From assembly GCA_027067055.1 (NCBI GenBank), contig JAMOMK010000101.1, forward strand, positions 1 to 64,000: 64,000 bases of DNA, read 5' to 3'. Source of the stretch: Lysobacterales bacterium (GTDB lineage Bacteria; Pseudomonadota; Gammaproteobacteria; Xanthomonadales; Marinicellaceae). The position numbers and the translations under genes were made by a program. Below the pieces are notes generated by a model. It was not told the DNA's origin. It saw only the letters and a program-made list of their open reading frames with translations, and did no database searches. Numbering within the stretch: the stretch's first letter is position 1; each line of letters starts with the position of its first letter. Below are positions 36,954 to 59,452 of this stretch, piece by piece.

Positions 36954-36997
36954 TTGAAAAATTATTGATTTAGTATTATAGTGAGTGAATGTTCACT
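36954..36997 (+). promoter_or_regulatory. Promoter and palindromic operator of the export operon
   Basis: TTGAAA (36954-36959), 17 bp, TATAGT (36977-36982). The palindrome AGTGAATGTTCACT (36984-36997) starts one base after the -10, at the expected transcription start. The same palindrome occurs at 47331 and, with one changed end base, at 59404. It is the predicted binding site of the TetR protein at 58380-58967. Confidence 0.75.
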
Positions 36998-37064
36998 AAC
37001 AATAAATAAGTAATAATTGTAGATAAGACTTTATTCTATAGAGTAAAACCATGAGGTTTTTAAC

Positions 37065-37958
37065 ATGAAGATAAATAAATCAAGCAACATAGAAAGCTCA
37101 GCTCATCTTACTCCGCATCAAGTTGAGCAGCTACAAGATGAAATTTTACAAAACCAATCGTATCAGTTGGCTTATGAGGATAAGGATTTTTTGTCCAGTG
37201 ATGATTTGCGACCTGTGCGTTTACAGTTGGAATTGCTTAAACCTGAACAGGCTTTGCGTGATAAAAATATTAACTCAACCATTGTGATTTTTGGTAGTGC
37301 TCGAATTTTGAGTCCAGATGATGCACAAGAACAGTGTCAACAAGTGCAACAAAAAGTTAAAGATAATCCTAGTGATACTCAAGCACAAATAGCTTTAATA
37401 AAAGCACAACGACAAGTCAAACAATCCAAGTATTATCAAGAAGCACAGAAACTGGCAAGAATTGTTTCTTTGCAGTTTCAGCAACAAAACCGCAAAGACT
37501 TTGTGGTGGTTACTGGTGGTGGCCCTGGTATTATGGAAGCGGCAAATCGTGGTGCTTTTGATGTCAAACAGCACAGCGTTGGTTTTAATATAACTTTAGA
37601 ACACGAACAAGCACCCAATCCGTATATCAACCCCGATTTGTGTTTTCAGTTTCAGTACTTTGCCTTGCGAAAAATGCACTTCTTACTGCGAGCAAAAGCC
37701 TTGGTTGCTTTCCCTGGTGGTTTTGGCACGCTGGATGAAGTATTTGAGGTGTTAACATTGGTTCAAACTAAAAAAATGGAACGATTGCCAATTATATTGC
37801 TAGGTAAAGAATACTGGCAACAGGTAATTAATTTTGAATACTTACAACAAGAGGGCTTTATTCATGTTGATGATTTAGCTTTATTTCACTTGATTGATAC
37901 CGCCGAACAAGCCGTGGAGGTCATGGTCGATTTTTATCATGGTCAACCACCTAAATAG
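37065..37958 (+). CDS. LOG-family protein (lysine decarboxylase-like fold, TIGR00730 type)
   Basis: 297 residues. The Rossmann-like nucleotide-binding core has FGSARI (about 77-82), VTGGGPGIMEAANRGAF and the diagnostic PGGFGTLDE. LOG proteins are phosphoribohydrolases that cut nucleoside monophosphates; they were once misnamed lysine decarboxylases. A long Gln-rich helical insertion (about 95-135) sits after the first strand. It is the first gene of an operon with a YbhGFSR-like exporter, 21 bp before the next gene. Why a nucleotide hydrolase joins an exporter is not clear. Confidence 0.88.
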   Translation: MKINKSSNIESSAHLTPHQVEQLQDEILQNQSYQLAYEDKDFLSSDDLRPVRLQLELLKPEQALRDKNINSTIVIFGSARILSPDDAQEQCQQVQQKVKDNPSDTQAQIALIKAQRQVKQSKYYQEAQKLARIVSLQFQQQNRKDFVVVTGGGPGIMEAANRGAFDVKQHSVGFNITLEHEQAPNPYINPDLCFQFQYFALRKMHFLLRAKALVAFPGGFGTLDEVFEVLTLVQTKKMERLPIILLGKEYWQQVINFEYLQQEGFIHVDDLALFHLIDTAEQAVEVMVDFYHGQPPK

Positions 37959-37979
37959 CCCTTAAATGAGGAAAATAAA

Positions 37980-39014
37980 ATGAACAAAAAACCCATAATT
38001 TTAATAATCGTTCTTGCTGCACTGGCAGCAGGTGGCTATTATTTTTTCATCAACAAGCAAGAACAAGATACATCAACGCTTAATCTCTATGGCAATGTAG
38101 ATATTCGTGAGGTGCAATTGGCATTTAATGGCAGCGAACACATCAGTCAACTCTTAGTTGAAGAGGGTGAGACGGTTAAAAAAGGTCAGTTACTGGCAGT
38201 TTTGCACAGTGAAATCTTGCAAGCCCAATTAGCAGAGGCTCAAGCTCAAGTGGTGGCGCAACAGCAATTGTTGGCAAAATTAAAAGCAGGCAGTCGCATC
38301 GAAGAGGTGGACAAGGTTAAAGCCGAACTTAATGCTGCTAGAGCAAAAGCCAAGGCAGCCAGCAGCAGTTACAGCCGCTTGCGTTCGTTGTTGAAGAAAA
38401 AAGTGGTCACAGCCGATCAAGTTGACCAAGCCAAAGCCTTAAAAGATGCTGCCAATGCCGAAGTTGAAGCGATTAAACAGGCGTTGAATTTATTAGAAGC
38501 AGGCACACGAAAAGAAGACATTGCCAGTGCTGAAGCTGTTTTATTGGCGCGTATTGCTGGAGTTGATTTGATTCAACAACGCCTTAATGATGCCAAATTA
38601 ATTGCACCCTCTGATGGTATTATTCGTAATAGAATTTTGGAAGTCGGGAGCATGGTGTTTCCACAAACACCGGTGATGACTTTAGCATTTGTCGATCCGA
38701 TTTGGGTGAGAACCTATTTGCCTGAAACTGCTTTAGGGAGAGTTACTATTGGCAGTCGAGCCAAGATATACACCGATTCTTATCCCAATAAAGCTTATGA
38801 AGGTTGGGTGGGTTATATTTCACCGACCTCAGAGTTTACTCCAAAAAATATTCAAACCGAAGAATTACGCACCCGTTTGGTTTATTCCATGCGCGTTTTT
38901 GCCTGTAATCCAAACAATGAATTGCGTTTAGGAATGCCTGCAACTGTGGTGATTGATACCACAAAAACCACCAATGACGAACCAATAACCGCAGCTGAAA
39001 TGTGTAAAAAATAA
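37980..39014 (+). CDS. HlyD-family membrane fusion protein, YbhG-like
   Basis: 344 residues. One N-terminal membrane anchor (PIILIIVLAALAAGGYYFFI), a split lipoyl domain (HISQLLVEEGETVKKGQLLA and IAPSDGIIRNRILEVGS) and a coiled-coil hairpin of about 120 residues between them. The C-terminal beta-barrel carries WVRTYLPETALGRV. It is the periplasmic adaptor for the ABC exporter encoded next; its stop and the next start share TAATG. The size and neighbours match E. coli YbhG. Confidence 0.9.
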   Translation: MNKKPIILIIVLAALAAGGYYFFINKQEQDTSTLNLYGNVDIREVQLAFNGSEHISQLLVEEGETVKKGQLLAVLHSEILQAQLAEAQAQVVAQQQLLAKLKAGSRIEEVDKVKAELNAARAKAKAASSSYSRLRSLLKKKVVTADQVDQAKALKDAANAEVEAIKQALNLLEAGTRKEDIASAEAVLLARIAGVDLIQQRLNDAKLIAPSDGIIRNRILEVGSMVFPQTPVMTLAFVDPIWVRTYLPETALGRVTIGSRAKIYTDSYPNKAYEGWVGYISPTSEFTPKNIQTEELRTRLVYSMRVFACNPNNELRLGMPATVVIDTTKTTNDEPITAAEMCKK

Positions 39015-40768
39015 TGTCAAAAGTCATCCTCACCTTATCGCAAGTCAACAAAACTTTTGATAGTCAAGATTATCAAGTCAAAGCCATTGATGACATGAGT
39101 TTTGCCGTGAAAACGGGTAAAGTCACGGGTTTGATAGGACCCGATGGTGCGGGTAAAACCACCTTGATGCGTTTGGCTTGCGGGATTTTGACCCCTGATT
39201 CTGGTGATTTTGAAGTCATGGGCATTGATGTCACTAAGGAACCTTTGCAAGTGCAATCGCAAATTGGTTACATGCCTCAGAGATTTGGCTTATACGAAGA
39301 CTTAACCGTACAGGAAAACTTGGACTTGTATGCTGATTTACAGAATGTCGCCAAAGACAAACGCCAAGCCCGCTACGACGAATTGATGCACATGACAGGC
39401 ATGAGTCCTTTTACTGGACGATTGGCAGGAAAATTATCGGGTGGCATGAAGCAAAAACTGGGATTGGCGTGTACGCTGATTCGTTCACCAAAACTCTTGT
39501 TATTGGATGAACCAACCGTTGGTGTTGATCCTGTTTCTCGACGTGAACTGTGGGAAATTGTCTATCGGCAAGTACAAGAACAGGGCATGAGCGTATTATT
39601 AAGTACCGCTTATTTGGATGAAGCCGAACGTTGTGATGAAGTGGTTTTGTTACACGAAGGCAAACTCATTATGCAGGGTGACCCCAAAGAATTTAGCCAA
39701 ACGGTCAATGGGCGTGTCTTTCAAGTCACGGTTGAAAACAGCAAACACCGTTCTTTGCAACAAAAGCTTAGCCAAAACCCCGCTGTTTTAGATGCCTTAA
39801 TTGAAGGCGAGGGTGTTCGTTTGGTTATGACTGAACAAAGCGAACCTAAGGCAGAAGTTTTATTGCCCGAGATGGTTAAAGCCAATAGAAAAATAAACAT
39901 CACAGCTGTAGCCCCGCGTTTTGAAGATGCTTTTATTGCCCGTTTAAAAAATAAAGAAAACAGTAAAGAACACAGTATTGCGAAAATCCAAGTCAGTGGC
40001 TCAGCCGATGATGAGGTCATTCGGGTAGAGGATTTAACCCGAAAATTTGGTGATTTTACCGCCGTTAATAAAATAAATTTTCACGTGAAACGCGGTGAAA
40101 TATTTGGCTTACTGGGAGCCAATGGCGCAGGCAAATCCACCGCTTTTCGAATGTTGTGCGGTTTATTGCCAGTCAGTAGCGGCAAGGTGGCTGTTGCTGG
40201 TATGGATTTACGTGTGGCAACGGCAAGTGCGCGACGGAAAATTGGCTACATGGCACAGAAATTCTCGCTTTATACCGACTTATCGGTGAAACAAAACTTG
40301 AAATTCTTTTCCAGTGCTTATGGTTTACGAAAAAAAGCCCAGCAAGATCGGATTGATTGGGCATTAGAAACTTTTGAATTACAAGAATACCAAGACACCA
40401 ATGCAGGCAATTTGCCTTTGGGTTATAAACAACGCTTATCGTTTGCCGCAGCCTTGATGCACGAACCTGAAATTTTGTTTTTGGATGAACCTACCTCTGG
40501 GGTTGATCCTTTGGCTAGGCGTGAATTTTGGCAGAGAACCAATGCTTTGGCAGAAATGGGCGTGACTATTTTGGTGACAACGCATTTTATGGATGAAGCC
40601 AATTATTGTGACCGTTTGGTGATCATGTCAAAAGGTAAAATATTGGCATCAGGAACACCATTAGACATGAAAAATCTGGCTCGAACCGAATCACAGCCTG
40701 ATCCATCCATGGAAGATGCTTTTATTTACCTCATTCAAGAAAAGGAGCAGCCTGATGGCAGAGAATAA
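39014..40768 (+). CDS. Tandem ABC ATP-binding protein, YbhF-like
   Basis: 584 residues with two nucleotide-binding domains in one chain. The first has GPDGAGKTT and LSGGMKQKLG with LLLDEPTVGVD; its switch position reads STAYLDEA, lacking the usual His. The second has GANGAGKST, LPLGYKQRLS in place of LSGG, FLDEPTSGVD and TTHFMDEA. The two sites therefore differ, one with a good signature and the other with a good switch His, as in asymmetric exporters. The architecture matches E. coli YbhF. Confidence 0.92.
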   Translation: MSKVILTLSQVNKTFDSQDYQVKAIDDMSFAVKTGKVTGLIGPDGAGKTTLMRLACGILTPDSGDFEVMGIDVTKEPLQVQSQIGYMPQRFGLYEDLTVQENLDLYADLQNVAKDKRQARYDELMHMTGMSPFTGRLAGKLSGGMKQKLGLACTLIRSPKLLLLDEPTVGVDPVSRRELWEIVYRQVQEQGMSVLLSTAYLDEAERCDEVVLLHEGKLIMQGDPKEFSQTVNGRVFQVTVENSKHRSLQQKLSQNPAVLDALIEGEGVRLVMTEQSEPKAEVLLPEMVKANRKINITAVAPRFEDAFIARLKNKENSKEHSIAKIQVSGSADDEVIRVEDLTRKFGDFTAVNKINFHVKRGEIFGLLGANGAGKSTAFRMLCGLLPVSSGKVAVAGMDLRVATASARRKIGYMAQKFSLYTDLSVKQNLKFFSSAYGLRKKAQQDRIDWALETFELQEYQDTNAGNLPLGYKQRLSFAAALMHEPEILFLDEPTSGVDPLARREFWQRTNALAEMGVTILVTTHFMDEANYCDRLVIMSKGKILASGTPLDMKNLARTESQPDPSMEDAFIYLIQEKEQPDGRE

Positions 40769-41891
40769 AACTTCCGCTCGAAATATGCGCTTAATGGGTA
40801 TGCTACGCAAAGAAATGTGGCAAATCATTCGTGATCCTTCTAGTATCGCCATCGCTTTTGTTATGCCAGTGGTTTTGTTGTTTATGTTTGGTTATGGTGT
40901 ATCGCTGGATGCCAAAGATATTCCAGTGGGAATCGCCGTTGAACAGGCCGATATTGTTACCCAATCATTGAGCGATTCTTTTGAACAATCCGAATTTTTC
41001 AAGCCATCGTATTACCACTCTATTCAACAAGCCCAACAAGCCTTAGAGGAAAGAAAAATTGATGGTATCGTCTGGCTACGCAGTAATTTTTCACAAAACT
41101 TACAAGCAGGAAAACAAGCTCCAATTGAAATTATTATCAACGGAGTCGATTCCAATCAAGCCAATATCACCATGGGATACATTCAAGGGGTGTGGCAATC
41201 GTGGTTGATTCAGTTTTCAAGTTCTCGTGGTATCGCCTTAAATTTACCCGTTAATTTAGAACAGCGTGTGTGGTTTAATTCGGCATTAAACAGCCGGTTG
41301 TTTTTGGTGCCAGGAGTAATTGCGGTAATTATGACCATGATTGGTTCTTTGCTCACTGCTATGGTTGTGGCGCGAGAGTGGGAACGTGGCACCATGGAAG
41401 CCTTAATGGTGACACCATTATCCATGAAAGAAATGTTGGCAGGTAAGTTAATCCCTTATTTTATATTGGGTATGGGCAGTATGTTTATTAGCGTTGCCTT
41501 GGCGGTTTGGTGGTTTGGTGTTCCTTTGCGTGGCTCGTTTTGGGTGATGGTTTTGGTTTCGTCCCTTTTTATGATGGTGTCTTTGCTTATTGGTCTATTG
41601 ATTTCAATCATTTCAAAAAACCAATTTGTCGCAGGACAAACCGCTATTGCCGCTTCATTTTTACCAGCCTTTTTATTATCGGGATTCTTATTTGACATTA
41701 ATTCCATGCCCACAATTATTCAAGGCATCACTTATTTGATTCCTGCCCGCTATTTTGTCGCACAACTGCAAACCTTGTTTTTAGCAGGCAATGTTTGGCC
41801 AGTCATTCTTAGCAATGCTTTTGCTTTGATGGTAATGTTAGTGGTTTTGGCCTACTGGGTTTCCAGTAAATCACGTAAAACTTTGGAGTGA
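40755..41891 (+). CDS. ABC-2 permease, YbhS-like
   Basis: 378 residues from ATG 40755, preceded by AAGGAG and overlapping the ATPase gene by 14 bp. One helix near the N-terminus (SIAIAFVMPVVLLFMFGYGV) and about five more after residue 175, with the ABC-2 block AREWERGTMEALMVTPLS. The extracytoplasmic loop of about 130 residues should contact the adaptor. It pairs with the next permease. E. coli YbhS is the closest relative by architecture. Confidence 0.9.
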   Translation: MAENKTSARNMRLMGMLRKEMWQIIRDPSSIAIAFVMPVVLLFMFGYGVSLDAKDIPVGIAVEQADIVTQSLSDSFEQSEFFKPSYYHSIQQAQQALEERKIDGIVWLRSNFSQNLQAGKQAPIEIIINGVDSNQANITMGYIQGVWQSWLIQFSSSRGIALNLPVNLEQRVWFNSALNSRLFLVPGVIAVIMTMIGSLLTAMVVAREWERGTMEALMVTPLSMKEMLAGKLIPYFILGMGSMFISVALAVWWFGVPLRGSFWVMVLVSSLFMMVSLLIGLLISIISKNQFVAGQTAIAASFLPAFLLSGFLFDINSMPTIIQGITYLIPARYFVAQLQTLFLAGNVWPVILSNAFALMVMLVVLAYWVSSKSRKTLE

Positions 41892-41896
41892 TGCAG

Positions 41897-43018
41897 ATGA
41901 ATAATCAGTACTTTTCACAAATTTTTGCTTTGGCTTTAAAAGAGTTTTTGGCGTTGTTTCGGGACAAACGCAGTCGTTTGATTTTGGTTTTTCCACCACT
42001 TTTGCAAATATTGATTTTTGGCTTTGCTGCAACCTATGATTTGGACAATGTACCTATTGCTATTTACAACCAAGACCAAGGTCTGGTTTCGCGTGAATTT
42101 ATAAGCCAATTCGAAGGCTCAGAAACTTTTGAAGTTATAGAATACATCAAAAAAGACAGAGACATTGCACCTTTAATTGATAACAAAGACGTGCTGTTGG
42201 TGTTAAATATCGAACCTCAATTTTCTGATAAATTACAACAAGGAAAGAGTGCCAAAGTGCAAGTTATTTTGGATGGTAGAAACTCCAATACCGCCATGAC
42301 AGCGATGAATTATATTGCCAGTATGAATCTGGATTTTAACCAAAAATGGAGTGCCCAACATGGCGCAACAGGACCCAAAGTGGCTTTGGAGGTACGCAAT
42401 TGGTATAACGAAAACTTGCAATCACGCTGGTTTATTTTGCCCGGGATTTTAGGCTCACTTATTTTGGTGGTGATTTTGTTGGTTACCGCCTTATCGGTTG
42501 CCCGTGAGCGTGAGGCAGGTACTTTTGATCAATTATTGGTCACGCCGATGAACCCTACCCAAATCTTAATTGGCAAAGCCATTCCTGGTATTGTTATCGG
42601 CTTGCTTGAATCTACCTTGATCTTAATTATCATTGTTAAACTATTCCAAATACCGATTCAAGGTGATATTGCCGCTTTGTATCTTGGCTTGTTTTTATTT
42701 CTTATTGCTGCTACTGGTATTGGCTTGGTGATTTCTGCAATTTCCTTAACCCAACAACAGGCAGTCTTGGGAGCGTTTTTGTTTATCGTACCAGCTGTTG
42801 TGCTTTCGGGCTTTACTACACCCATAGCCAACATGCCCGATAGTGTGCAATTATTAACCTATATAAACCCTTTGCGTTATTTCTTGATTATATTACGTGG
42901 TGTGTTTTTAGAGGGTAATGGCTTTACCTTGTTGTTTTCACAATTTTGGCCAATGGCTATTATTGGTGTGGTGTGTTTGGTTTTTGCGGGTTGGTTGTTT
43001 CGACATCGAATGTATTAG
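41897..43018 (+). CDS. ABC-2 permease, YbhR-like
   Basis: 373 residues. ATG 41897 is preferred over earlier starts at 41888 and 41891 because GGAG at 41885-41888 is best spaced for it. Features: KEFLALFRDKRSRLILVFPP, a helix with FGFAATYDLDNVPIAIYN, a long loop, then LSVAREREAGTFDQLLVTPM and the terminal helices. It completes the YbhGFSR-like set. E. coli relatives have been linked to drug and cation tolerance. Confidence 0.9.
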   Translation: MNNQYFSQIFALALKEFLALFRDKRSRLILVFPPLLQILIFGFAATYDLDNVPIAIYNQDQGLVSREFISQFEGSETFEVIEYIKKDRDIAPLIDNKDVLLVLNIEPQFSDKLQQGKSAKVQVILDGRNSNTAMTAMNYIASMNLDFNQKWSAQHGATGPKVALEVRNWYNENLQSRWFILPGILGSLILVVILLVTALSVAREREAGTFDQLLVTPMNPTQILIGKAIPGIVIGLLESTLILIIIVKLFQIPIQGDIAALYLGLFLFLIAATGIGLVISAISLTQQQAVLGAFLFIVPAVVLSGFTTPIANMPDSVQLLTYINPLRYFLIILRGVFLEGNGFTLLFSQFWPMAIIGVVCLVFAGWLFRHRMY

Positions 43019-43027: not shown

Positions 43028-44032
43028 ATGAAATTAATATCAATTATTTTTTTAGTTATGTCATTATCGACCCAGGCACAAATTGAATTACACGATTCTG
43101 ATCAATCAGGTTATTGGAGTGTGCAGATCGAAAACGATGTGTTTGGCACCAGTACTGACCGGTTTTATACCAACGGTGTGCAACTCAACTATATTCAACG
43201 CGATAAAACCATCACTTGGTTGGAAAAATTGGTAGACAAACTGCCTTTATTTGTACGCACCGATAGCAAAGGGCGTGGTTATGCTTTCGGACAAAAAATG
43301 TTTACTCCTGAAGATACCCAAACCACTGAACTAATAGAAAATGATCGTCCCTATGCAGGCTGGTTATATGGCAGTGCATCAGTGGCATCCTTGATGAAAA
43401 ATACTGCTGATTACCGCAAAATAAATGCAGTTGAATTTACTTTGGGCATTGTCGGCCCTTCATCACTTGGTGAACAAGCTCAAAATGGTTTTCATGATTT
43501 GATTGGTGTTCCACATGCCAATGGTTGGGATAATCAATTGGGAGATGAATTGGGGCTGGTGGTGACTTATGTGCGAAAGAGTGAGCATTTTAGATACTTG
43601 AAAAGTGGTCTTGAGTATTCATGGTCACCTCATAAGGTTTTGGCTTTGGGGAATGTTTATACTTATGCGGGTGGAGGCATGATGGTGCGATTTGGTAAAA
43701 ACCTACGCAACGATATTGGACCGCCCAATATCAGCCCTGGCTTTCCTGGCAATGCTTTTTTTAATCCCACCAAAGAAGGCAGCAGTTGGTATCTATTTGC
43801 AGGTGTTGAAGGGCGTGCAATGGCACGTAATATTTTTCTTGATGGCAATACATTCAAAGACAGTCACAGTGTTGATAAAAAAACAATGGTATTTGATTTG
43901 CAATATGGTATTGCTTATCAACGTGGTAAAGTACGGATAAGCTACAGTCAAGTACTTCGTAGCAAAGAATTTTATGGGCAAATAGATGATAGTTTATTTG
44001 GTGCGGTTAATATTTCTTATGACTTGGATTGA
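43028..44032 (+). CDS. LpxR-family outer-membrane lipid A deacylase-like protein
   Basis: 334 residues with a signal peptide (SLSTQA end). The LpxR (DUF2219) pattern is present: GYWSVQIENDVFGTSTDRFYTNGVQ near the start, then NDRPYAGWLYGSASVAS, and GFHDLIGVPHANGWDNQL. The catalytic Asn/Asp/His region of LpxR falls in the first block and HANGW. It would be a 12-stranded barrel removing the 3'-acyloxyacyl group of lipid A. It follows the exporter by 9 bp, placing an outer-membrane enzyme in the regulated operon. Confidence 0.88.
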   Translation: MKLISIIFLVMSLSTQAQIELHDSDQSGYWSVQIENDVFGTSTDRFYTNGVQLNYIQRDKTITWLEKLVDKLPLFVRTDSKGRGYAFGQKMFTPEDTQTTELIENDRPYAGWLYGSASVASLMKNTADYRKINAVEFTLGIVGPSSLGEQAQNGFHDLIGVPHANGWDNQLGDELGLVVTYVRKSEHFRYLKSGLEYSWSPHKVLALGNVYTYAGGGMMVRFGKNLRNDIGPPNISPGFPGNAFFNPTKEGSSWYLFAGVEGRAMARNIFLDGNTFKDSHSVDKKTMVFDLQYGIAYQRGKVRISYSQVLRSKEFYGQIDDSLFGAVNISYDLD

Positions 44033-44109: not shown

Positions 44110-44553
44110 TTAATCCTCACTATTAGGAAAGGTCTTTTTATCCTCAGCTGTTGCTGTTTCGTTGCATTCGCCTTTGATGGTGACATGTCCTCGTTCAAAG
44201 AAGCTATCTAATTCCATATAACCTTCACGGCAATATCCTGTTTCGACTAGCTTAAGGTTGAGCTTTTTATTGGCTTTTTCTTCCATCTTGGCTTTCATTT
44301 TACTCATGTCGGGCTTTTTACCACCTTTCATGCCACCATGCATACCGCCACCTTTACCCATACCTTTGCCCATTTGACCTTGATTTGGCATTTTTTTTAT
44401 GAGACTATAATTGAAGACTTTGCTGCCATCAGGTTTAATATGAGTGACAAAAACCTCAGAGGGCTTGCCACCATGTCTTTTGGGCGAGTTTGAACTACAA
44501 GCAGTTATGCTTAATGTAGCAATTGTTAGACTTATAATAAGTTTATTATTCAT
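44110..44553 (-). CDS. Small Met/Gly/Lys-rich lipoprotein
   Basis: 147 residues. The signal peptide ends in a lipobox (LSITACSS, Cys about 20). The middle is low-complexity, with repeated GKGMGKGGGMHGGMKGG and many Met, Lys and His residues, a composition suited to metal binding. The C-terminal part contains two Cys (GYCREGYMELDSFFERG; GECNETA). I do not recognise a family. It is the last gene of the DUF2202-peroxidase-cytochrome cluster, but a 133-bp structured gap separates it from the cytochrome gene. Confidence 0.75.
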   Translation of the reverse strand: MNNKLIISLTIATLSITACSSNSPKRHGGKPSEVFVTHIKPDGSKVFNYSLIKKMPNQGQMGKGMGKGGGMHGGMKGGKKPDMSKMKAKMEEKANKKLNLKLVETGYCREGYMELDSFFERGHVTIKGECNETATAEDKKTFPNSED

Positions 44554-44686: not shown

Positions 44687-45169
44687 TTACTTACATAATT
44701 GGTTGTATTTCATGCGAATCATGGCATCATGATTACCACCTCGACCCATACCTTGACCATTTCCTTGAGGTTGAGAGCCACTAGAGTTTTTTAAATCATT
44801 AGCCCAATGGGTGCAAGGAGCCTCAAAAGTTTCTTCATACAAATAAGCACCAATTTGGGCTAGCATTTCATCAGGTAAAGGCATCGCTGGCATTAATCCA
44901 AACTTTTTAACAGGGCGTTTCATTAAAGCCTTTTCTTGGGTTGGATTTTTTGCCCAGTCGCTAACGGCTGTGATGAAGCTTTGTTTGTCCGCATAATTGC
45001 GTTTATATCTATTTTGTACTCCATAAAAAGGTGGAGCAAGTGACGGTGTTAACTCTGCATTATGGCAAGCTAAACAAGCATTAATTGCTGTTTTGCCTTT
45101 TTCGGCCTCTAGCGTTAATGCCATTGAGTTAAACGCTAATATCAATGTTATTAGGGTTAGGTTTTTCAT
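44687..45169 (-). CDS. Periplasmic monohaem c-type cytochrome
   Basis: 160 residues from ATG 45169 with AAGGAG upstream; the longer frame to 45241 overlaps the peroxidase gene and lacks a signal. A signal peptide precedes a single haem site CLACH (about 33-37), with Met residues in LMPAMPLPDEML as candidate sixth ligand. The C-terminus is Gly/Gln/Met-rich (GNGQGMGRGGNHDAM), echoing the neighbouring lipoprotein. Probably the electron partner of the dihaem peroxidase encoded just upstream. Confidence 0.85.
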   Translation of the reverse strand: MKNLTLITLILAFNSMALTLEAEKGKTAINACLACHNAELTPSLAPPFYGVQNRYKRNYADKQSFITAVSDWAKNPTQEKALMKRPVKKFGLMPAMPLPDEMLAQIGAYLYEETFEAPCTHWANDLKNSSGSQPQGNGQGMGRGGNHDAMIRMKYNQLCK

Positions 45170-45179
45170 GCGTTTCTCC

Positions 45180-46163
45180 TTATTTGAAAGGTTCTGGTTT
45201 TGGGGTTTCTGCAACTGACGGTGGTAATTGCGGTAAATCAAATGACGGTGCGTCTCCTGTAAGAGTTTTTAAGAAGGCTACAATCATATTGCTTTCATCG
45301 GTTGTAAATTTACGCCCCAATTGAATTTCTCCCATGATATTAACCGCTTCATTTAGTGAAGTAGTTGAGCCATCATGAAAGTATGGATAGGTTAGTTCAA
45401 TATTTCTTAGCGTTGGTACTTTAAACATAAACTTATCGCTGTCTTTTTGAGTCACTCCAGCAAGTCCTATGGCTTTATTACTAGTTTGGAATTTCTTTAT
45501 TACACCCATTTTTTGATAAGATGAACCACCTACAGCTGCACCATTGTGACAACCGACACAGCCGCTGTTTTTAAACAGTTCATAACCAGACAATTCTTTG
45601 GCAGAAATGGCATCTTTATCGCCAAGTAACCATTGGTCAAAAGGAGAATGAGGTGTAACCAAAGTTTTTTCAAATTCGGCAATAGCAGAGGTCATGCTAT
45701 CGACATTAATTTGATTCTTACCAAAGACTAGTTTGAACTCTTGCACATAACCTGGTATTGATTTAATCACGCTGATTGCAAGCTCATGAGTTGATGCCAT
45801 TTCACCAGGGTTAGCAATTGGACCACCTGCCTGTTCTTTTAAGTCTTTAGCACGACCATCCCAAAATTGAGCTATATTAAAACTGGAATTTAATACAGTA
45901 GGAGCATTAATTGGTCCTTGATTCCACTTATGCCCAATGGATGTTGGTAGATTGTCAGTGCCTCCCATACTTAAGTTATGGCAAGAGTTACAGGAAATAA
46001 AACCTGACTTTGAAAGCCGAGGATCAAAATAGAGTTTTTTTCCTAACTCCATTAGTGCCATATTAATATTTTCTGCTGGCTTAATTGGCTCAATGGGTTC
46101 TTGTGCATTAGATAATGCAGAAAGACCTAGCAGCCCAGTAATTAGTATTTTTTTAATAGTCAT
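45180..46163 (-). CDS. Dihaem cytochrome c peroxidase (CcpA/MauG family)
   Basis: 327 residues from ATG 46163; GGAG lies just upstream inside a spurious longer frame. Signal peptide, then two haem sites CNSCH (about 62-66) and CVGCH (about 209-213). The characteristic blocks LGKKLYFDPRLSKSGFISCN, NAPTVLNSSFN, FWDGRAKDLKEQA and KVPTLRNIELTYPYFHDGS match the family. It reduces hydrogen peroxide in the periplasm with cytochrome electrons. It sits between a DUF2202 ferritin-like protein and a cytochrome c. Confidence 0.93.
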   Translation of the reverse strand: MTIKKILITGLLGLSALSNAQEPIEPIKPAENINMALMELGKKLYFDPRLSKSGFISCNSCHNLSMGGTDNLPTSIGHKWNQGPINAPTVLNSSFNIAQFWDGRAKDLKEQAGGPIANPGEMASTHELAISVIKSIPGYVQEFKLVFGKNQINVDSMTSAIAEFEKTLVTPHSPFDQWLLGDKDAISAKELSGYELFKNSGCVGCHNGAAVGGSSYQKMGVIKKFQTSNKAIGLAGVTQKDSDKFMFKVPTLRNIELTYPYFHDGSTTSLNEAVNIMGEIQLGRKFTTDESNMIVAFLKTLTGDAPSFDLPQLPPSVAETPKPEPFK

Positions 46164-52974: not shown

Positions 52975-53132
52975 GAGACTATACTTTTTAAATAATTAGA
53001 GCGACTATATTAGTTGTTTCTAATATTCAAAGAATCAGGCAATTGTCTTATTTGGTAAATTAAACCAAAGTTTCCATAGGGCATTTGTACCAAAAGCAGT
53101 AAAATGAGGCAAAAATAATATAAAATTGGAAA

Positions 53133-53642
53133 ATGAAAGATAAAATAGTTGCTGCCTGCCTATTGCTGATAATGGTACTTAATACATTAGATGTGATTAC
53201 TGATATTTCTTTAAAAGTACCCTTGTGGCATATTATAGAAGAGGCCATGATAGTGATTTTTTCAGGGTCATTGGCTGGTTATTTAATCTGGGATACGCGT
53301 CGAACAACCAAAGAGTTAAATTCATTGTCCAGTTCTTTAAGTGAGGCAGAAGCCCATGTAAAAAAAATTACCAAACAATTTAAAGAAATTCGCCATCAGT
53401 ATTCTGAAGTCATCCATCAGCAATTCAATGATTGGAGCTTATCACAAAGTGAGCAAGAGGTAGCTATGCTAATGTTAAAAGGCATGAATTTCCATGAAAT
53501 CGCCACTATCAGAAATACCAAAGAAAAAACAGCTCGACAACAAGCTTCATCAATTTATGCCAAAAGTGGTTTACAAGGCAGGCATGAGTTATCAGCTTGG
53601 TTTATTGAGGATTTTTTAAGTAATGAAACAAACACTAATTGA
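53133..53642 (+). CDS. Membrane-anchored LuxR-type transcriptional regulator
   Basis: 169 residues. Two N-terminal membrane helices (IVAACLLLIMVLNTLDVI; AMIVIFSGSLAGYLIW), a coiled coil of about 40 residues, and a C-terminal LuxR helix-turn-helix (LSQSEQEVAMLMLKGMNFHE with IATIRNTKEKTARQQASSIY). It is divergent from the metal efflux operon and convergent with the histidine kinase, whose end it overlaps by 8 bp. It could regulate the pump, but no operator was identified with confidence. Confidence 0.85.
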   Translation: MKDKIVAACLLLIMVLNTLDVITDISLKVPLWHIIEEAMIVIFSGSLAGYLIWDTRRTTKELNSLSSSLSEAEAHVKKITKQFKEIRHQYSEVIHQQFNDWSLSQSEQEVAMLMLKGMNFHEIATIRNTKEKTARQQASSIYAKSGLQGRHELSAWFIEDFLSNETNTN

Positions 53643-54951
53643 GCCTAATTACTACTTGTAAACCTCCTAATTGTGATTTTTGGAATGTAATTTTACCATT
53701 GTATAGCTCAATGATATCCTTAACAATTGCAAGCCCCAAACCCGTTCCATCACTATGGCTGTCGACTCGTGTCCCTCTTTGAGTCAGAAAATCAAGTTGG
53801 TTTTTATCACAGCCTTCACCATCATCTTCAATACTGATTGTTATACCATCCTTTGAATTAACCTGACAAATAATTTGTGATTTTGACCATTTAAAGGCAT
53901 TGTCCAAAAGGTTGCCAAATACTTCAAGCATGTCATTTCTATCAGCTTGTATTTCGCAGTTTGCATCAATGATTAGTTGCACATCACGGTGCTTTTGAGG
54001 GTAAACCCGTTTTAATACATCAACCAATAAAGAGATTTCTTCCTGTACTTTAAACACATGGCCATGAATACCTGCTCCCATCATTTTGGCTCTTTTGAGC
54101 TCACTTTCGCTTAATAGGTAAATTTTGTTCACTTGGGAGATTAGCTCTTTTTTAACTTTGGGCAAGGCCTTTAGCTGTTCGGACTCAGCAAGATTCACCA
54201 ACAATGTTAACGGGTGTTTTAAGCTGTGGGCTAAGTTGCCTGTGGCTTTTCGCGACCGTTGCAATTGTTTGCTTAGTAGTTGCAGTAGATGATTAATTTC
54301 CTTGATTAATGGGTTGAGTTCTAACGGTGCTTGAGTGGAAAGTTGAGAAATCTTACCTTCAGCCAATTGTTGCAATTCAGTTTTAATTTGGGATAAGGGC
54401 AGTAAGGCGCGTTTTATCATTAACCTTTGTAAAAGCAATGACAGGAGTAATACTATAAGCGCGGTGATAGTAAAATAAAGGTTGAATTGACGAATGGCGA
54501 TTAACAATTCGCTGCTGTCTTCAGCGACAGTGAGTGTGATTTTTTGACCAAATCGTTCAAACGCCATGCTTAACTGCACCAGTGGTTGTTTGTTGGGCCC
54601 GATAAAATCTTGAACCAATCGCTGCCCCGTTTCCAACGGTGTTTGGGTTAAGCTTTCGTCCCATAATGAATGAGAACGAAGCAATTGAGTTTTAGTTTTT
54701 ATAATAAAATAATGCCCCGAAAAAATGCGTTGATAAATATGCCCAACTTGTAAATTTTTCAGGGCGATTTCAGCGTTGTTTTTTACTTCCAAGCTTGCTA
54801 AAACAGCCTCTGCATCGTGTTGCAAGCGGCTCACCATCATGTTCTTATTAATCGTGGTGATGTAATTGTTGGCAATCCACCACAAAACGACTACCAAAAC
54901 GACAAGACTACCCGTCAAGCTAAAATTCAACTGGTTACGTAAGGATTTCAT
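53635..54951 (-). CDS. Sensor histidine kinase (QseC/PhoQ-like)
   Basis: 438 residues. Two membrane helices (LVVLVVVLWWIANNYIT and FTITALIVLLLSLLLQRLMI) enclose a periplasmic sensor of about 120 residues. A HAMP-like linker, HisKA with NLAHSLKHPLTLLVNL (phospho-His in SLKHPL) and a HATPase domain with NLLDNAFKW and EDDGEGCD, GTGLGLAI follow. The ATG of its gene overlaps the response regulator stop. It is the last gene of a cytochrome operon, so it probably senses redox or a cation. Confidence 0.93.
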   Translation of the reverse strand: MKSLRNQLNFSLTGSLVVLVVVLWWIANNYITTINKNMMVSRLQHDAEAVLASLEVKNNAEIALKNLQVGHIYQRIFSGHYFIIKTKTQLLRSHSLWDESLTQTPLETGQRLVQDFIGPNKQPLVQLSMAFERFGQKITLTVAEDSSELLIAIRQFNLYFTITALIVLLLSLLLQRLMIKRALLPLSQIKTELQQLAEGKISQLSTQAPLELNPLIKEINHLLQLLSKQLQRSRKATGNLAHSLKHPLTLLVNLAESEQLKALPKVKKELISQVNKIYLLSESELKRAKMMGAGIHGHVFKVQEEISLLVDVLKRVYPQKHRDVQLIIDANCEIQADRNDMLEVFGNLLDNAFKWSKSQIICQVNSKDGITISIEDDGEGCDKNQLDFLTQRGTRVDSHSDGTGLGLAIVKDIIELYNGKITFQKSQLGGLQVVIRLN

Positions 54952-55619
54952 TGAGTATTTACCTTAAAAACATAACCCTGAAAACGTTTGGTTTGAATCA
55001 TTTCTTGACCAATTTTATTCCGCAATCGCTTAACATAGACTTCTATCACATTGGCATCACGTTCGTTATCGCCTTCATAGACGTATTCGATGAGTCTGTT
55101 TTTGGATAAAACCACACCTGCATGGGTCATGAAATACCACAACAATCGGTATTCAATGTGGGTTAGGGCGTGAGTTTTATTATTTTTGTTTGTCACTTCT
55201 TGTTTGTTTTCATCCAGAAATAGTCCAGCTAATGAGATGCCAGTTGAAGCATTGCCAACACTGCGGCGAATTAAAGCTTCAACGCGTGCCAGCAATTCCT
55301 GTGCATGAAAGGGTTTGCCCATATAATCATCTGCACCAAGCTTTAAGCCGTCAACTCTATCACTCCAATCGTTGCGAGCGGTTAACATTAAAACAGGAGT
55401 TTTGTTGCCTTTAGCACGCCAGTTTTCTAATACCTGTAATCCTGAGCGTTTGGGCAAACCAATATCTAATATGACTAAAGCGTATTCAATTTCATCGCCT
55501 TGAAATTCTGCATCAATACCGTTAGTGACAGTCTCAACCAAATAATTTGCTTGCCGTAAAAATGCTTTGATGTTTTTAGCCAATTCTTTATCGTCTTCAG
55601 CGAGCAATATACGCATCAA
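54948..55619 (-). CDS. OmpR/PhoB-family response regulator
   Basis: 223 residues. Receiver: LAEDDKELAKNIK (acidic pocket), phospho-Asp in LVILDIGLPKRSGL, Thr in VLMLTAR and Lys in GKPF. The winged-helix DNA-binding domain follows (HIEYRLLWYFMTHAGVVLSK, then RDANVIEVYVKRLRNKIG). It is coupled to the kinase by an ATGA overlap and to the PepSY gene upstream. Target genes likely include its own operon. Confidence 0.95.
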   Translation of the reverse strand: MMRILLAEDDKELAKNIKAFLRQANYLVETVTNGIDAEFQGDEIEYALVILDIGLPKRSGLQVLENWRAKGNKTPVLMLTARNDWSDRVDGLKLGADDYMGKPFHAQELLARVEALIRRSVGNASTGISLAGLFLDENKQEVTNKNNKTHALTHIEYRLLWYFMTHAGVVLSKNRLIEYVYEGDNERDANVIEVYVKRLRNKIGQEMIQTKRFQGYVFKVNTQ

Positions 55620-55906
55620 TCCAGTTCCTTTTTGATTATTTTACCCGTTTTGGCATTGATCTTGTATTCCCAAACTACACCTTGTTCATTCAAAATTTCA
55701 ATCTCATAGATGATTTGCTTATTTTCACGCTCCAGTTCCACTTCCAAGACTTTGCCTGGCATGGTTTTATGGTTGATATGCAGGATTTTCTCTAGGGGTA
55801 AGATTTCTCCTTTTTGCAAAAGATTATAGGCAATATCATGTTCATCAGCTTGAACTATTGAACAAGCTGAGATGTATAAAATAACAAATAAACCTAGTCT
55901 TCCCAT
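55616..55906 (-). CDS. Periplasmic PepSY-domain protein
   Basis: 96 residues. Signal peptide (ISACSIVQA), then a PepSY domain: LQKGEILPLEKILHINHK, GKVLEVELERENKQIIYEIE and YKINAKTGKIIKKELD. PepSY proteins often inhibit a protease or bind a metal/redox partner and commonly accompany two-component systems and cytochrome b561. Its ends overlap both neighbours by 4-13 bp. Confidence 0.88.
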   Translation of the reverse strand: MGRLGLFVILYISACSIVQADEHDIAYNLLQKGEILPLEKILHINHKTMPGKVLEVELERENKQIIYEIEILNEQGVVWEYKINAKTGKIIKKELD

Positions 55907-56475
55907 CGCCCATAACCAGGGATTTTGACATCATGTTCATTAAACGACCCTTTTTCTGCATTGGTATGGCAGGCAGTACAATTACTAAAAGAACCAATTT
56001 CTTTTGTGTTTTTAACAATACGATAAGGGATTTCATCATGCTTACGGACAAAATACAAGGTCTTAGTAATACGCAATGGTGCATCACTCCTACCTAAGGA
56101 GCGCATAATGCGCTTGGAGCGTTTATAATTTGATTTATCTGCAGAATTTTGAACCAAGTACTGAGTCAGTTCATTTTGTAAGTCTACCTCAAGCTCGGCA
56201 TTTTCATCGAAATGATTTTCTAAGTCTCCCATGATTTTCAACCAGGACTTTTCTGGCAACAAGCCAGGTTGATAAGCAAAATGGCAACTGCCACATTCTT
56301 CTGTATAATTGGCATTGTTCACGGCAGCCACGTCCAAATTGCGTGAAGAATAGGATTTGTACTCGTGTTCTTCGTGTTCATTTTCTTCTTTATGGTTGAA
56401 TCGATTACCACCCATTATAATACTTGTTGTCAGTAACAGGGCAAAAACGGCAACGGTTGTTATGATTATCTTCAT
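55894..56475 (-). CDS. Dihaem cytochrome c (DHC family)
   Basis: 193 residues. N-terminal signal or anchor helix, a charged segment (HKEENEHEEHEYKSY), then haem sites CGSCH (about 60-64) and CTACH (about 168-172). The block YQPGLLPEKSWLKIMGDLEN and the DVKIPGYGRWED end are DHC hallmarks. DHC accepts electrons from cytochrome b561 and passes them to SHP/DUF1924. All three genes are adjacent here. Confidence 0.92.
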   Translation of the reverse strand: MKIIITTVAVFALLLTTSIIMGGNRFNHKEENEHEEHEYKSYSSRNLDVAAVNNANYTEECGSCHFAYQPGLLPEKSWLKIMGDLENHFDENAELEVDLQNELTQYLVQNSADKSNYKRSKRIMRSLGRSDAPLRITKTLYFVRKHDEIPYRIVKNTKEIGSFSNCTACHTNAEKGSFNEHDVKIPGYGRWED

Positions 56476-56485
56476 GTTCTATCTC

Positions 56486-56884
56486 CTATTGAGTGATTAA
56501 AAATTTTAAAATATCGGCTTGTTCTTGGGCACTGCACTCGCGACCAAGCGTCCATTTGCAATTGCGTTTGAACCATTTCTTAATTTTCTTGCTATCGGTA
56601 AAACGTTTATCATTTACACTTTTTGCCATTGCTTCAATGACTTTACCTGTGCGAAGATGCTCGCCACTTTGTGTCACATCCAAACCATGGCAACTGGCAC
56701 AACTGCGTTGCTTGCCTTTGGATTTTTCTGTAATGAAGGGTTTATTCCACAAGGCTTTGCCTTGTTGAGGGTCTATTGAAGCCACACCTGCTTGTTGATA
56801 GGCATCAAACATTTCATCTATTGGATTGGCTTGTATATTATTTATGGATAGCAAAGCAAATAATGTTATTATTGAAACTTTCAT
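56486..56884 (-). CDS. DUF1924 / SHP-type monohaem cytochrome
   Basis: 132 residues. Signal peptide (NNIQA), then a single CASCH haem site (about 62-66). KALWNKPFITEKSKGKQRSC is characteristic of DUF1924/sphaeroides haem protein. The C-terminal CKWTLGRECSAQEQADILKF adds two further Cys typical of SHP. SHP binds oxygen and small ligands in other bacteria, and the reaction in the cell is unsettled. It overlaps cytochrome b561 by 4 bp. Confidence 0.9.
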   Translation of the reverse strand: MKVSIITLFALLSINNIQANPIDEMFDAYQQAGVASIDPQQGKALWNKPFITEKSKGKQRSCASCHGLDVTQSGEHLRTGKVIEAMAKSVNDKRFTDSKKIKKWFKRNCKWTLGRECSAQEQADILKFLITQ

Positions 56885-57471
56885 GAGGCATCCTCTTTAG
56901 ATGTGGCATTCGCTCTTTTCTTACCGTTAAGCATGCTGACCACTAAATTTTCTTTGTGTTGGTAACTGGCAGAAATGACTCCCAAAATATGTAGAACAAT
57001 TAAAAACAAGGTAAAGTTGGCAAAAAATTCATGGATTTCTTCAATATCATGGGCTGTGGATTTACTCACTTCCATCATCACACCAGCCAACGGCCCTGAA
57101 AATTCCCCAACTCCATAAAGCATTAGACCAAATAAAGTTGTCATGAGTAAACTAAAAATTAAAGCCAAAACCATCATCGCTCCAGCTGGGTTGTGCCCAA
57201 TATAACGTTTGGCTGAGTGGTTTTTAATGTCTTTGATATAAGAAAGGGCAGTGGATGGTTTCACCACGAAACTATTGAATCGAGCGTATCGACTCCCGAT
57301 AAATCCCCAGATTAAGCGAAAAATAATTAAGCCTAAGATGACATACCCCGCAATCACGTGTACGTCCTGATAATCATCTTCCGTTAAATAAGCAATAGCA
57401 AACGAAGTCACTAAGCTCCAATGAAAAACACGCACTAAGACATCCCAGACTTTAACTGTATCTTGTGTCAT
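56881..57471 (-). CDS. Cytochrome b561-type membrane protein
   Basis: 196 residues, four membrane helices. VRVFHWSLVTSFAIAYL carries the first haem His; HVIAGYVILGLIIFRLIWG and the late EEIHEFFANFTLFLIVLHIL carry further His ligands. The pattern matches the di-haem b561 that feeds DHC/SHP modules. First gene of the six-gene operon b561-SHP-DHC-PepSY-regulator-kinase, all overlapping or within 10 bp. Confidence 0.92.
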   Translation of the reverse strand: MTQDTVKVWDVLVRVFHWSLVTSFAIAYLTEDDYQDVHVIAGYVILGLIIFRLIWGFIGSRYARFNSFVVKPSTALSYIKDIKNHSAKRYIGHNPAGAMMVLALIFSLLMTTLFGLMLYGVGEFSGPLAGVMMEVSKSTAHDIEEIHEFFANFTLFLIVLHILGVISASYQHKENLVVSMLNGKKRANATSKEDAS

Positions 57472-57553
57472 AAACTACCTCAATTATTAAATAAGGGCAG
57501 TTTAAATCACCGAGCTGAAATCAAGCTGAAATTAAAATTGTAGAAGGTTGATT

Positions 57554-57985
57554 TTAAAAATAGATTACTTTTACTTTAACAAATTTATTAGTTTCAAGTA
57601 AAAATTGTGCTTTTTTAAAGTTGGGTTTATGTCTGAATCCGATTGATTCGAAATTACTAAAACCAATGCCTTCTTTGGGTAGGACAAAGCCTTTATCAAT
57701 TTTGCCATCTTTGTTTTCATCATGGAGTATATTGACCGCATAATTTCCCTTGGGTAAGTTGTTAAAAATCACACTGGCTGTTTTATTTTCAATAGTGCTT
57801 TTCTGTTGCAAAAGATAATGAGTAAAGTGTTCATCTGGTATGCTGCCATCTTTATTGTACAAAGAAAATTGGACAACTCCTGTAGAATTACGTAAATCTT
57901 CAACTTGCACTGTTAATGTATAATTTAAATCTTGCGAGTTAATGCTGCTGGCAAACAGAATTATTAATAATAAAGAATTCTTCAC
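57554..57985 (-). CDS. DUF2141 periplasmic protein
   Basis: 143 residues. Signal peptide (SSINS), then a beta-sandwich with the DUF2141 pattern: LTVQVEDLRNSTGVVQFSLY, FNNLPKGNYAVNILHDENKD, and GFVLPKEGIGFSNF. Function is unknown. It is the last gene of the TetR operon, overlapping the previous membrane gene by 4 bp. Confidence 0.88.
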   Translation of the reverse strand: MKNSLLLIILFASSINSQDLNYTLTVQVEDLRNSTGVVQFSLYNKDGSIPDEHFTHYLLQQKSTIENKTASVIFNNLPKGNYAVNILHDENKDGKIDKGFVLPKEGIGFSNFESIGFRHKPNFKKAQFLLETNKFVKVKVIYF

Positions 57986-58377
57986 AATAAAGTTGCCTTT
58001 TTAGGAATAACAAAATAAGCCAGTAAAGTAAATACTGCAGTAACTGCCATTCTAAACATCATAGCGCCATAAGTTTTGACTTCATAGATACCACCGTTAT
58101 CAATGTAAATGGTAAAATAGGCAAAAACAAGTATCAATAATGAAAGTGCCAGCCCTAATAATAATGATGTCCAACCCTTTTGTTTGATAAAACCATAAAC
58201 GGCAACAAAGTAAACCAAACTGCATATCAGGTTGGTGACCACTATAAACAGAACATAGTTGCCTTGAGAAGCGCGGACATCAAATAGATCAAAAATTACC
58301 GAGGTACTTAAAAAAAAAGTTAAGGACGCAAAGGCAAGTAGAGGTAGTGCAAATAGGTAAGGGAGGTATTTTTTCAT
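57982..58377 (-). CDS. Small four-helix membrane protein of unknown function
   Basis: 131 residues, four predicted membrane helices (YLFALPLLAFASLTFFLSTS; VLFIVVTNLICSLVYFVAVY; WTSLLLGLALSLLILVFAYF; MFRMAVTAVFTLLAYFVI). I do not recognise a family. Located 2 bp after the TetR gene in the same operon. The position suggests a role in membrane stress or lipid handling, which is only context. Confidence 0.7.
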   Translation of the reverse strand: MKKYLPYLFALPLLAFASLTFFLSTSVIFDLFDVRASQGNYVLFIVVTNLICSLVYFVAVYGFIKQKGWTSLLLGLALSLLILVFAYFTIYIDNGGIYEVKTYGAMMFRMAVTAVFTLLAYFVIPKKATLL

Positions 58378-58379
58378 AG

Positions 58380-58967
58380 TTAGCTCATTAGGGTTAAAAG
58401 GGTTTGTATGTGTTTATCGCCTTCTTTTTTTAGATTAAATTGAAATTCATCCATACGCCACTTAAACATCATCAACCGAAAGGTTCCCATAACAATATGA
58501 ATTAATTGTTTGGTATTAACTTTGTCAGTAAAATCTCCTTGTTTTTGTCCTGCTTTAATAATGGGCATTAAGTGTTTGTACTTAACTGCCATGATTTTTT
58601 TAATTGCTATGTTAATTTCTTTCGATTCTTCCATTAGACCATCTGAAAAGGCAGCAACCACGAAGTGTGAGTGACTTGAAAAGAAATCAAACTGTGAGCT
58701 GAACATGGCAACAAATTGTTCAATAGGTGTGTTTTTAGATTTAATAGCTTCACCTAGTCTATTATCCATATCATGTTCCATATAGGCCAACATGGCTTCA
58801 ACAATTTTCCCTTTGCTTTTGAAATGTCGGTACAAGGCACTTTCCGAAAACTTCATTTCTAAAGCGAGGTTTTTAGTGGTAAGCCCACTAATACCTGACT
58901 TGGAAAGAATCTTACCCGCACAATCGACAATTTCTTGCTGTCGTTTACTTATTTTAAATTCTTGCAT
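58380..58967 (-). CDS. TetR/AcrR-family repressor, predicted master of the local palindrome regulon
   Basis: 195 residues. N-terminal helix-turn-helix: LTTKNLALEMKFSESALYRH then FKSKGKIVEAML, a classical TetR recognition helix. The C-terminal half is helical with Met-rich stretches (MGTFRLMMFKWRM), suitable for a hydrophobic inducer. It lies in an operon starting 14 bp upstream of the palindrome at 59404. The same palindrome precedes two other operons in this window. Proposed role: repressor of its own operon, the RND pump, the YbhGFSR-like operon and the DUF2202 operon. The link rests on shared sites and genome proximity. Confidence 0.88.
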   Translation of the reverse strand: MQEFKISKRQQEIVDCAGKILSKSGISGLTTKNLALEMKFSESALYRHFKSKGKIVEAMLAYMEHDMDNRLGEAIKSKNTPIEQFVAMFSSQFDFFSSHSHFVVAAFSDGLMEESKEINIAIKKIMAVKYKHLMPIIKAGQKQGDFTDKVNTKQLIHIVMGTFRLMMFKWRMDEFQFNLKKEGDKHIQTLLTLMS

Positions 58968-58970
58968 TGA

Positions 58971-59381
58971 TTAATCCTGTAAATTTTTCATCTTTAAAAA
59001 AGACAATCCTAACCACACAACGGAAATTGTCATGCAAATAGCGCCAATTAAGACCAAAATAGGTGGAAAGCCAAGGTAAACTTCAGCCAATATACCAATA
59101 GGCATTAATAGGCCAGTTAAAGCTAACCATGATATGGCTTTTACATGCTTGAGTTTGTCATGGAATCTTAATAAGAAATAGCCAATCAAAAGGTTTAGAA
59201 AAGCAAATAAATTACCGTGCACATGTGCCAGTCGAGTTTCAAAATGTTTTCCTATTGAATAGGCATTGGCCCACTCTTCTTTTCCTGGAGCAAAGTCTCG
59301 TAAATAGATCAAAAAGAACCCATATGCCATAAAAAAGCCCATGGTTAAAAAACCAATTGCAATGTTGTTTTTGCCGTTCAT
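58971..59381 (-). CDS. Small four-helix membrane protein with His motif
   Basis: 136 residues, four predicted helices (IAIGFLTMGFFMAYGFFLIY; NLFAFLNLLIGYFLLRF; ISWLALTGLLMPIGILAEVY; PILVLIGAICMTISVVWLGL). HFETRLAHVHGNLFAFLN before helix 2 resembles the haem- or substrate-binding His region of styrene-oxide-isomerase-like small membrane proteins, weakly. AGGAAA lies before the ATG. First gene of the TetR operon, 3 bp before the regulator. Confidence 0.7.
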   Translation of the reverse strand: MNGKNNIAIGFLTMGFFMAYGFFLIYLRDFAPGKEEWANAYSIGKHFETRLAHVHGNLFAFLNLLIGYFLLRFHDKLKHVKAISWLALTGLLMPIGILAEVYLGFPPILVLIGAICMTISVVWLGLSFLKMKNLQD

Positions 59382-59403
59382 AATTATTTCCTCTTTAAAA
59401 GTT

Positions 59404-59452
59404 AGTGAATGTTCACAAACTTCACTATAATCCTTGATTTTAATCTTTGCAA
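59404..59452. promoter_or_regulatory. Divergent promoters with shared palindromic operator
   Basis: AGTGAATGTTCACA (59404-59417). Minus-strand promoter: TTGCAA (59452-59447), 17 bp, TATAGT (59429-59424), with the operator 6 bp past the -10. Plus-strand promoter: TATAAT (59426-59431) with a poor -35 (TTAGTG, 59402-59407, 18 bp) inside which the operator begins. Repressor binding would block both directions, switching the TetR operon and the RND pump together. Confidence 0.75.

Follow-up and report, generated by a model that had tools for sequence, protein, structure and literature searches.

Among TetR-type regulators, AcrR and MtrR are local efflux repressors, and KstR2 has an acyl-CoA-type ligand, as does FadR by its PDB title. 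CecR (YbiH) of Escherichia coli controls ybhGFSR and rhlE, according to an excerpt of one report (PMC6790063), and SlmA has 50 sites in E. coli K-12, mainly in coding sequence, as given in part of another (PMC3116907). Here we analyzed a 64,000-nucleotide stretch of an uncultured Lysobacterales bacterium (Marinicellaceae; contig JAMOMK010000101.1 of GCA_027067055.1, positions 1 to 64,000; hereafter the window), in which one palindrome stands at three promoters. From its sequence context, this palindrome is very probably the operator of the SlmA-like TetR-family protein encoded at 58380-58967, serving that protein's own operon and a divergent RND pump, a LOG/exporter/LpxR operon, and a DUF2202 operon (Table 1).

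The 14-mer AGTGAATGTTCACT occurs exactly at 36984-36997 and 47331-47344 and with one end base altered at 59404-59417, as the first-pass annotation of this DNA had reported; its promoter boxes and spacers were likewise recovered at all three sites. Within the window, with up to two mismatches and both strands counted, there were 5 matches against 0.64 expected from shuffles. With its flanks the site comprises 20 bp, GTnAGTGAATGTTCACTnAC, and at up to two mismatches this sequence is found nowhere else in the draft genome (3,419,909 bases in 145 contigs; assembly completeness 98.25%). When up to three mismatches were allowed, the three window places lay within one mismatch and one extra place had three; because a reversed-pattern control then gave 5 forward and 2 reverse matches, where the real pattern gave 3 and 4, we placed weight only on close 20-mer matches. 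The genome-wide search for the 14-mer with one mismatch, proposed in the first-pass annotation, returned six places: the window's three, outside any open reading frame of at least 100 residues, and three on contigs C10, C25, and C131, within reading frames. At up to two mismatches, 15 of 21 places tested fell within such frames and 6 did not, three of the latter being the window sites. The many coding copies that would have spoken against an operator were thus absent, the three close 20-mer copies each standing at a promoter. Chance occurrence was ruled out by these searches, by the placement relative to reading frames, and by control palindromes in other phyla (below); a figure of 1.7e-4 for the clustering of three sites in 22 kb is post hoc and was not used as evidence.

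At all three promoters the 14-bp core begins 1-7 bp after the -10 box, a position that fits steric repression. Judging from this position, a TetR dimer would bind GTnAGTGAAnnTTCACTnAC directly past the -10 box and block transcription of three targets: its own short operon (two small hydrophobic proteins and a DUF2141 protein) with the divergent RND pump, the operon of the LOG protein, YbhGFSR-like exporter, and LpxR, and the operon of the DUF2202, MauG-type, cytochrome c, and lipoprotein genes. The third site does separate the tetR operon from the divergent pump, as first proposed, and the TTGCAA box of the tetR promoter is invariant in 7/7 aligned genomes. A TetR protein acting here as activator or dual regulator would have a precedent in SlmA, which directly activates chb in Vibrio cholerae according to an excerpt of PMC6790063; with the cores immediately past the -10 box, we consider this very unlikely.

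Site conservation in relatives, a check suggested in the first-pass annotation, was assessed in 11 genomes of the genus, the window genome (G000) and ten others (G001-G010). Close homologues of the TetR protein (E ≤ 2.5e-56) were found in six of the ten (G003, G004, G007, G008, G009, G010), with 85-93% identity except in G008 (47%), and the palindrome is present in the tetR promoter of all seven genomes that have the gene. The TetR-less genomes (G001, G002, G005, G006) yielded three-mismatch matches only, one to two per strand, the same as controls. DUF2202 orthologues occur in eight genomes (53-100% identity); the site precedes them in five of the six that have both TetR and DUF2202 (G000, G003, G004, G009, G010) and in neither of two TetR-less genomes (G001, G005). 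With HlyD as the marker gene, for which close homologues among the ten other genomes exist only in G009 and G010, the exporter operon is present in three genomes and carries the site before LOG in 3/3. In alignments of the three regions, the site's outer arms have no variation in 16/16, 15/15, and 11/12 ungapped columns, compared with 30/66, 48/103, and 34/86 columns in the remainder. In G003 and G010, tetR and DUF2202 lie on separate contigs with a site at both, in G010 perhaps owing to an assembly break.

The regulator and its site were also followed into other phyla, with one genome per species. The best 80 of 109 relatives gave 79 loci, mostly from Bacteroidota, with others from Ignavibacteria, Aminicenantes, Calditrichaceae, and Sporomusaceae; without six same-genus loci and the truncated L227, 72 outside loci were available. 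A match of at least 12/14 to AGTGAATATTCACT was present near tetR (1.1 kb upstream to 0.7 kb downstream of its start) in 65 of the 72 (70 at ≥11, 52 at ≥13, and 18 at 14). The density of matches elsewhere in the loci was about 29 times lower at ≥12, and 209 control palindromes with the same half-site letters averaged 0.94 loci, with a maximum of 9. Searching 17 of 18 selected outside genomes with the 20-mer at up to two mismatches identified 20 places in 16 genomes (reversed control, 2 places), of which 19 fell no more than about 4 kb from tetR, the exception being G063:C4. The regulator therefore looks local outside the genus, and recruitment of remote operons looks genus-specific. Together, the genus-wide and cross-phylum co-occurrence of protein and site strongly supports the first-pass choice of this TetR protein as the likely regulator of all three sites.

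Most genes that follow tetR in other phyla (loci L160-L208, 124 proteins; two loci had no qualifying gene) encode parts of tripartite efflux systems: HlyD 35, OEP 27, MacB/FtsX 22, ABC ATPase 12, and RND 7. A YbhGFSR-like set follows tetR in three outside loci (L180, L216, and L219, the sole site of L216 being 11/14), and LpxR in three others (L166, L178, and L179, the last two with near-identical coordinates and possibly one lineage), L166 having a second site before an OEP-adaptor-RND-LpxR run; exporter and LpxR thus recur with this TetR type. DUF2202/MauG as a target was seen in this genus only, the sole outside DUF2202 locus (L209) having no site there. Among the best 80 of 109 relatives, the closest outside the genus are from Bacteroidota, with 58% identity and less. 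In a tree of 42 chosen rows, rooted for drawing only, the gammaproteobacterial rows fall within a group composed mainly of Bacteroidota (96/91); support for uniting the six rows is weak (44/24), so one or two transfers are possible. The tetR gene was likely transferred from Bacteroidota, where the regulator would mostly control itself and an adjacent efflux system, and its operator would then have been recruited to remote operons in this genus. An apparently horizontally acquired repressor is seen widening its regulon within a genus, from one locus to three promoters. Since the regulator-operator pair is readable from sequence across several phyla, operators can be predicted for a large TetR group that is apparently uncharacterised. 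A literature search with the core 12-mers as text returned no paper about a regulator, judged by title and start of abstract, and passages of a Caldithrix abyssi paper describe a different palindrome.

Several observations weigh against control of all three promoters by this protein. G008 has the TetR protein (at 47% identity) and a DUF2202 gene without the site; the complete three-operon set exists in three genomes only (G000, G009, G010), with two sites in G003 and G004 and one in G007 and G008, some assemblies being incomplete. Near tetR, 7/72 outside loci have no site at ≥12/14, and the 17 genomes searched with the 20-mer were hand-picked, mostly from loci already showing a site there. The window genome holds ten TetR_N genes, and the nine besides the window's were not excluded individually as owners of the sites. 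Alternatively, the protein's control might stop at its own operon and the RND pump, with the LOG and DUF2202 sites bound by another related TetR protein or surviving as decaying leftovers. The almost exclusive placement of the site at tetR in the other-phylum genomes searched, the G008 DUF2202 gene, and the number of TetR_N genes are in keeping with such a restricted role; we nevertheless judge it improbable, as the LOG and DUF2202 sites are conserved as well as the tetR site, two TetR-less genomes have no site before DUF2202, and none of the nine other TetR proteins of G000 matches the SlmA model at E ≤ 1e-12, whereas the window's does. Control of all three operons by the one TetR protein is the reading carried forward here.

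Table 1 Features of the window that bear on the proposed regulon.
Feature	Coordinates	Strand	Basis or remark
Promoter boxes, LOG/exporter/LpxR operon	36954..36982	+	TTGAAA 36954-36959, 17 bp, TATAGT 36977-36982
Putative TetR operator 1, GTGAGTGAATGTTCACTAAC	36981..37000	.	14-mer and 20-mer searches; also before LOG in G009, G010
LOG-type (TIGR00730) Rossmann protein	37065..37958	+	104.3 bits, cut-off 96.35; below LOG equivalog cut-off
HlyD-type adaptor, YbhG-like	37980..39014	+	NF002939, 334 bits, under its cut-off of 393
Double ABC ATPase, YbhF-like	39014..40768	+	Pfam
ABC2 permease	40716..41891	+	Pfam
Second ABC2 permease	41888..43018	+	Pfam
LpxR family outer membrane protein	43028..44032	+	PF09982, E 9e-101, 337.5 bits, cut-off 26
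Putative lipoprotein, Met-rich	44110..44553	-	No Pfam match at E ≤ 1
Cytochrome c, Met/Gly-rich tail	44687..45241	-	Pfam and sequence
MauG/CCP-type dihaem protein	45180..46175	-	Pfam; below MauG equivalog cut-off
DUF2202 protein with extra N-terminal region	46231..47235	-	Probable start ATG at 47226
Second-type palindrome	47254..47275	.	In DUF2202 leader
Putative TetR operator 2, GTAAGTGAATGTTCACTTAC	47328..47347	.	Outer 8+8 bases invariant in 5/5 aligned genomes
Promoter boxes, DUF2202 operon	47352..47379	-	TTGCAA 47379-47374, 16 bp, TATATT 47357-47352
Second-type palindrome	47403..47424	.	Upstream of DUF2202 promoter
Second-type palindrome	53006..53027	.	Between start of 51808-52974 (CzcA-type pump operon) and LuxR-like gene 53133
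Cytochrome b561, DUF1924, DHC, PepSY, response regulator, histidine kinase	53635..57471	-	Probably outside TetR regulon
Direct repeat TTTCAGCTTGATTTCAGCT before b561	57513..57531	-	Possible response-regulator box of separate unit
DUF2141 protein	57554..57985	-	Pfam
131-residue hydrophobic protein	57982..58377	-	Homologue in tetR locus of 17 loci outside genus
TetR-family regulator, SlmA-like, proposed owner of three operators	58380..58967	-	Pfam, NCBIfam, PDB sequence matches
136-residue hydrophobic, presumably membrane, protein	58971..59381	-	No Pfam match at E ≤ 0.5, no PDB fold match
Putative TetR operator 3, GTTAGTGAATGTTCACAAAC	59401..59420	.	Between tetR operon and RND operon
Promoter boxes, tetR operon	59424..59452	-	TTGCAA 59452-59447, 17 bp, TATAGT 59429-59424
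RND adaptor	59434..60864	+	Start codon uncertain; ATG near 59461 likely
RND permease	60867..63968	+	NCBIfam

Pfam confirmed the assignments of the LOG-type protein, HlyD, the double ABC ATPase, both ABC2 permeases, LpxR, the MauG-type dihaem protein, cytochrome c, DUF2202, and TetR. The HlyD adaptor, ABC ATPase, and two ABC2 permeases stand in one run, the layout of YbhGFSR; the LpxR-family protein that follows we take to be a lipid A 3'-O-deacylase, and DUF2202 is presumably of the ferritin-like clan. One switch probably ties drug export to lipid A trimming and to a redox cluster of haem and ferritin-like proteins, and for it we infer a joint response of the three operons. The earlier label "peroxide/iron defence" is a guess; a CzcA-type heavy-metal pump adjoins the DUF2202 operon, and a second palindrome there points to sulfur/redox stress. 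The lipoprotein and cytochrome c tail of this operon are rich in Met and Gly, a possible sign of metal handling next to the CzcA-type pump. Residues ~30-160 of the DUF2202 protein resemble stretches of many large open reading frames in the genus (up to 22 matches per genome).

The second palindrome, TATATTAGn6CTAATATA, has 43 places in the window genome at up to two mismatches against 6 for the reversed control, and 12-43 against 1-8 across the 11 genomes. All 15 of its best places lie outside open reading frames, one of them upstream of an ArsR gene. Ten proteins beside the best places include this ArsR regulator, a pyridine nucleotide-disulphide oxidoreductase, a MauG-type protein, HlyD, two cytochromes, a metallophosphatase, a NifU-type protein, and a metallo-beta-lactamase-fold protein divergent from TauE. 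The latter pair lies on the same contig at 72844, outside the window. The best PDB matches of the ArsR protein are of the HlyU and BigR types, and it resembles BigR, HlyU, SqrR, and YgaV in having Cys38 and Cys104 and the motif in its own promoter. The second palindrome is probably the site of a BigR/HlyU-type ArsR sulfur/redox regulator whose regulon would take in a MauG-type protein, cytochromes, the TauE/metallo-beta-lactamase-fold pair, and the DUF2202 operon, the last of which would then be under a genus-wide second regulator in addition to TetR; the DUF2202 genes of G001, G005, and G008 have the second palindrome and no TetR site. A LuxR-type owner (gene 53133) was rejected: in the four genomes without a homologue (G001, G002, G005, G006) the motif persists at 12-28 places, where the control has 5-8, though the count is 18-43 in the six that do have a close homologue. 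In G008, a cytochrome c gene that elsewhere belongs to the DUF2202 operon (C7 70357-70836; L125 10357-10836) adjoins tetR convergently, with a second palindrome (C7:70324-70345) beside its start. A literature search found no paper on DUF2202; the present analysis supplies a regulatory context for the family, consisting of an efflux signal through TetR and a probable sulfur/redox signal through ArsR.

For the three operons claimed at first pass, sites and promoters stood, and the run behind tetR is probably two units rather than one, with an SHP/DHC cytochrome cluster under its own promoter; we take the DUF1924 protein of this cluster to be SHP-like. The gap before b561 measures 82 bp in the window and about 95-145 bp in relatives, and the direct repeat TTTCAGCTTGATTTCAGCT is kept with 0-2 changes in 4 aligned genomes. 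Given gap and repeat, the b561-SHP-DHC-PepSY-response regulator-histidine kinase genes need not be in the TetR regulon, and their membership in the tetR operon was judged unlikely; the repeat resembles a response-regulator box, possibly that of the cluster's own regulator. A promoter scan of the gap was uninformative, with one match against 1.2 expected and no terminator. SHP operons with sensor kinase/response regulator pairs are described in an excerpt of PMC2909971.

The 136-residue protein is 65-82% identical between the genus and 14 aligned Bacteroidota/Ignavibacteria tetR loci, exceeding the identity of TetR itself, and H46, E48, R50, H53, and H55 are invariant in 17 aligned rows, the row from L165 having been dropped at 22% identity. 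Its model (pLDDT 82.4) had no PDB match (best E 2.1). A broader reading would make it the membrane sensor or signal source, in part of the range, of a cross-phylum SlmA-like TetR type that recognises GTnAGTGAATATTCACTnAC nearly throughout; after transfer from Bacteroidota, LpxR lipid A deacylation, export, and DUF2202/MauG would have been captured into a single regulon for lipid damage, with a persulfide-type ArsR signal entering at the DUF2202 promoter. We hold this combination tentatively and think it rather unlikely; only 16/73 outside loci have the protein, and the tetR loci of G003, G008, and G010 lack it, both of which argue against a sensor role.

The TetR protein itself has a TetR_N helix-turn-helix (33.9 bits, cut-off 24) and a TetR_C_4 domain. 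By sequence it is closest to SlmA and Bacillus FadR, and its model (pLDDT 90.7) matched TetR-type structures in Foldseek, the closest folds being KstR2, FadR, and SlmA. SlmA is the best PDB sequence match (residues 4-87), and the recognition helices read SESALYRHF here and SEAALYRHF in SlmA; the SlmA box GTGAGTACTCAC, as given in part of PMC3116907, equals the family consensus core GTGAATATTCAC at 10/12 positions and the window core GTGAATGTTCAC at 9/12. These likenesses are what would favor a nucleoid-occlusion factor whose palindromes mark chromosome positions. We find that scarcely credible, and SlmA identity with chromosome marking was set aside, because the protein scores 62.9 bits against the SlmA equivalog cut-off of 120 (NCBIfam NF007015) and has only three close places, all promoters, unlike the many, mainly coding sites excerpted from PMC3116907; its operator is also extended by GTn/nAC flanks.

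FadR (YsiA) of Bacillus and KstR2 are among the best fold matches of the model (TM by query 0.78-0.85) and share TetR_C_4, but identity is 14-18% and the predicted targets here are exporters rather than fatty-acid degradation. Given its TetR class, these fold relatives, and the exporters among the predicted targets, the protein would probably be released by a small toxicant, hydrophobic or acyl-type, or by a product of envelope damage, acyl ligands being a first guess from the model. The parallel with CecR drawn in the first-pass annotation holds in function, a TetR-type protein with several transcription units in its reach, a YbhGFSR-type exporter among them; there is no sign of orthology. 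The gene's neighbours and its partner genes (LpxR, DUF2202/MauG, RND) are not those of CecR, about 21 kb separates it from the exporter promoter, and the 12 NCBIfam matches include no CecR-named model, the existence of which in the library was not checked. As with AcrR and MtrR, an operator separates the regulator operon from a divergent RND operon, but here two further operons bear it, one of which is not an exporter.

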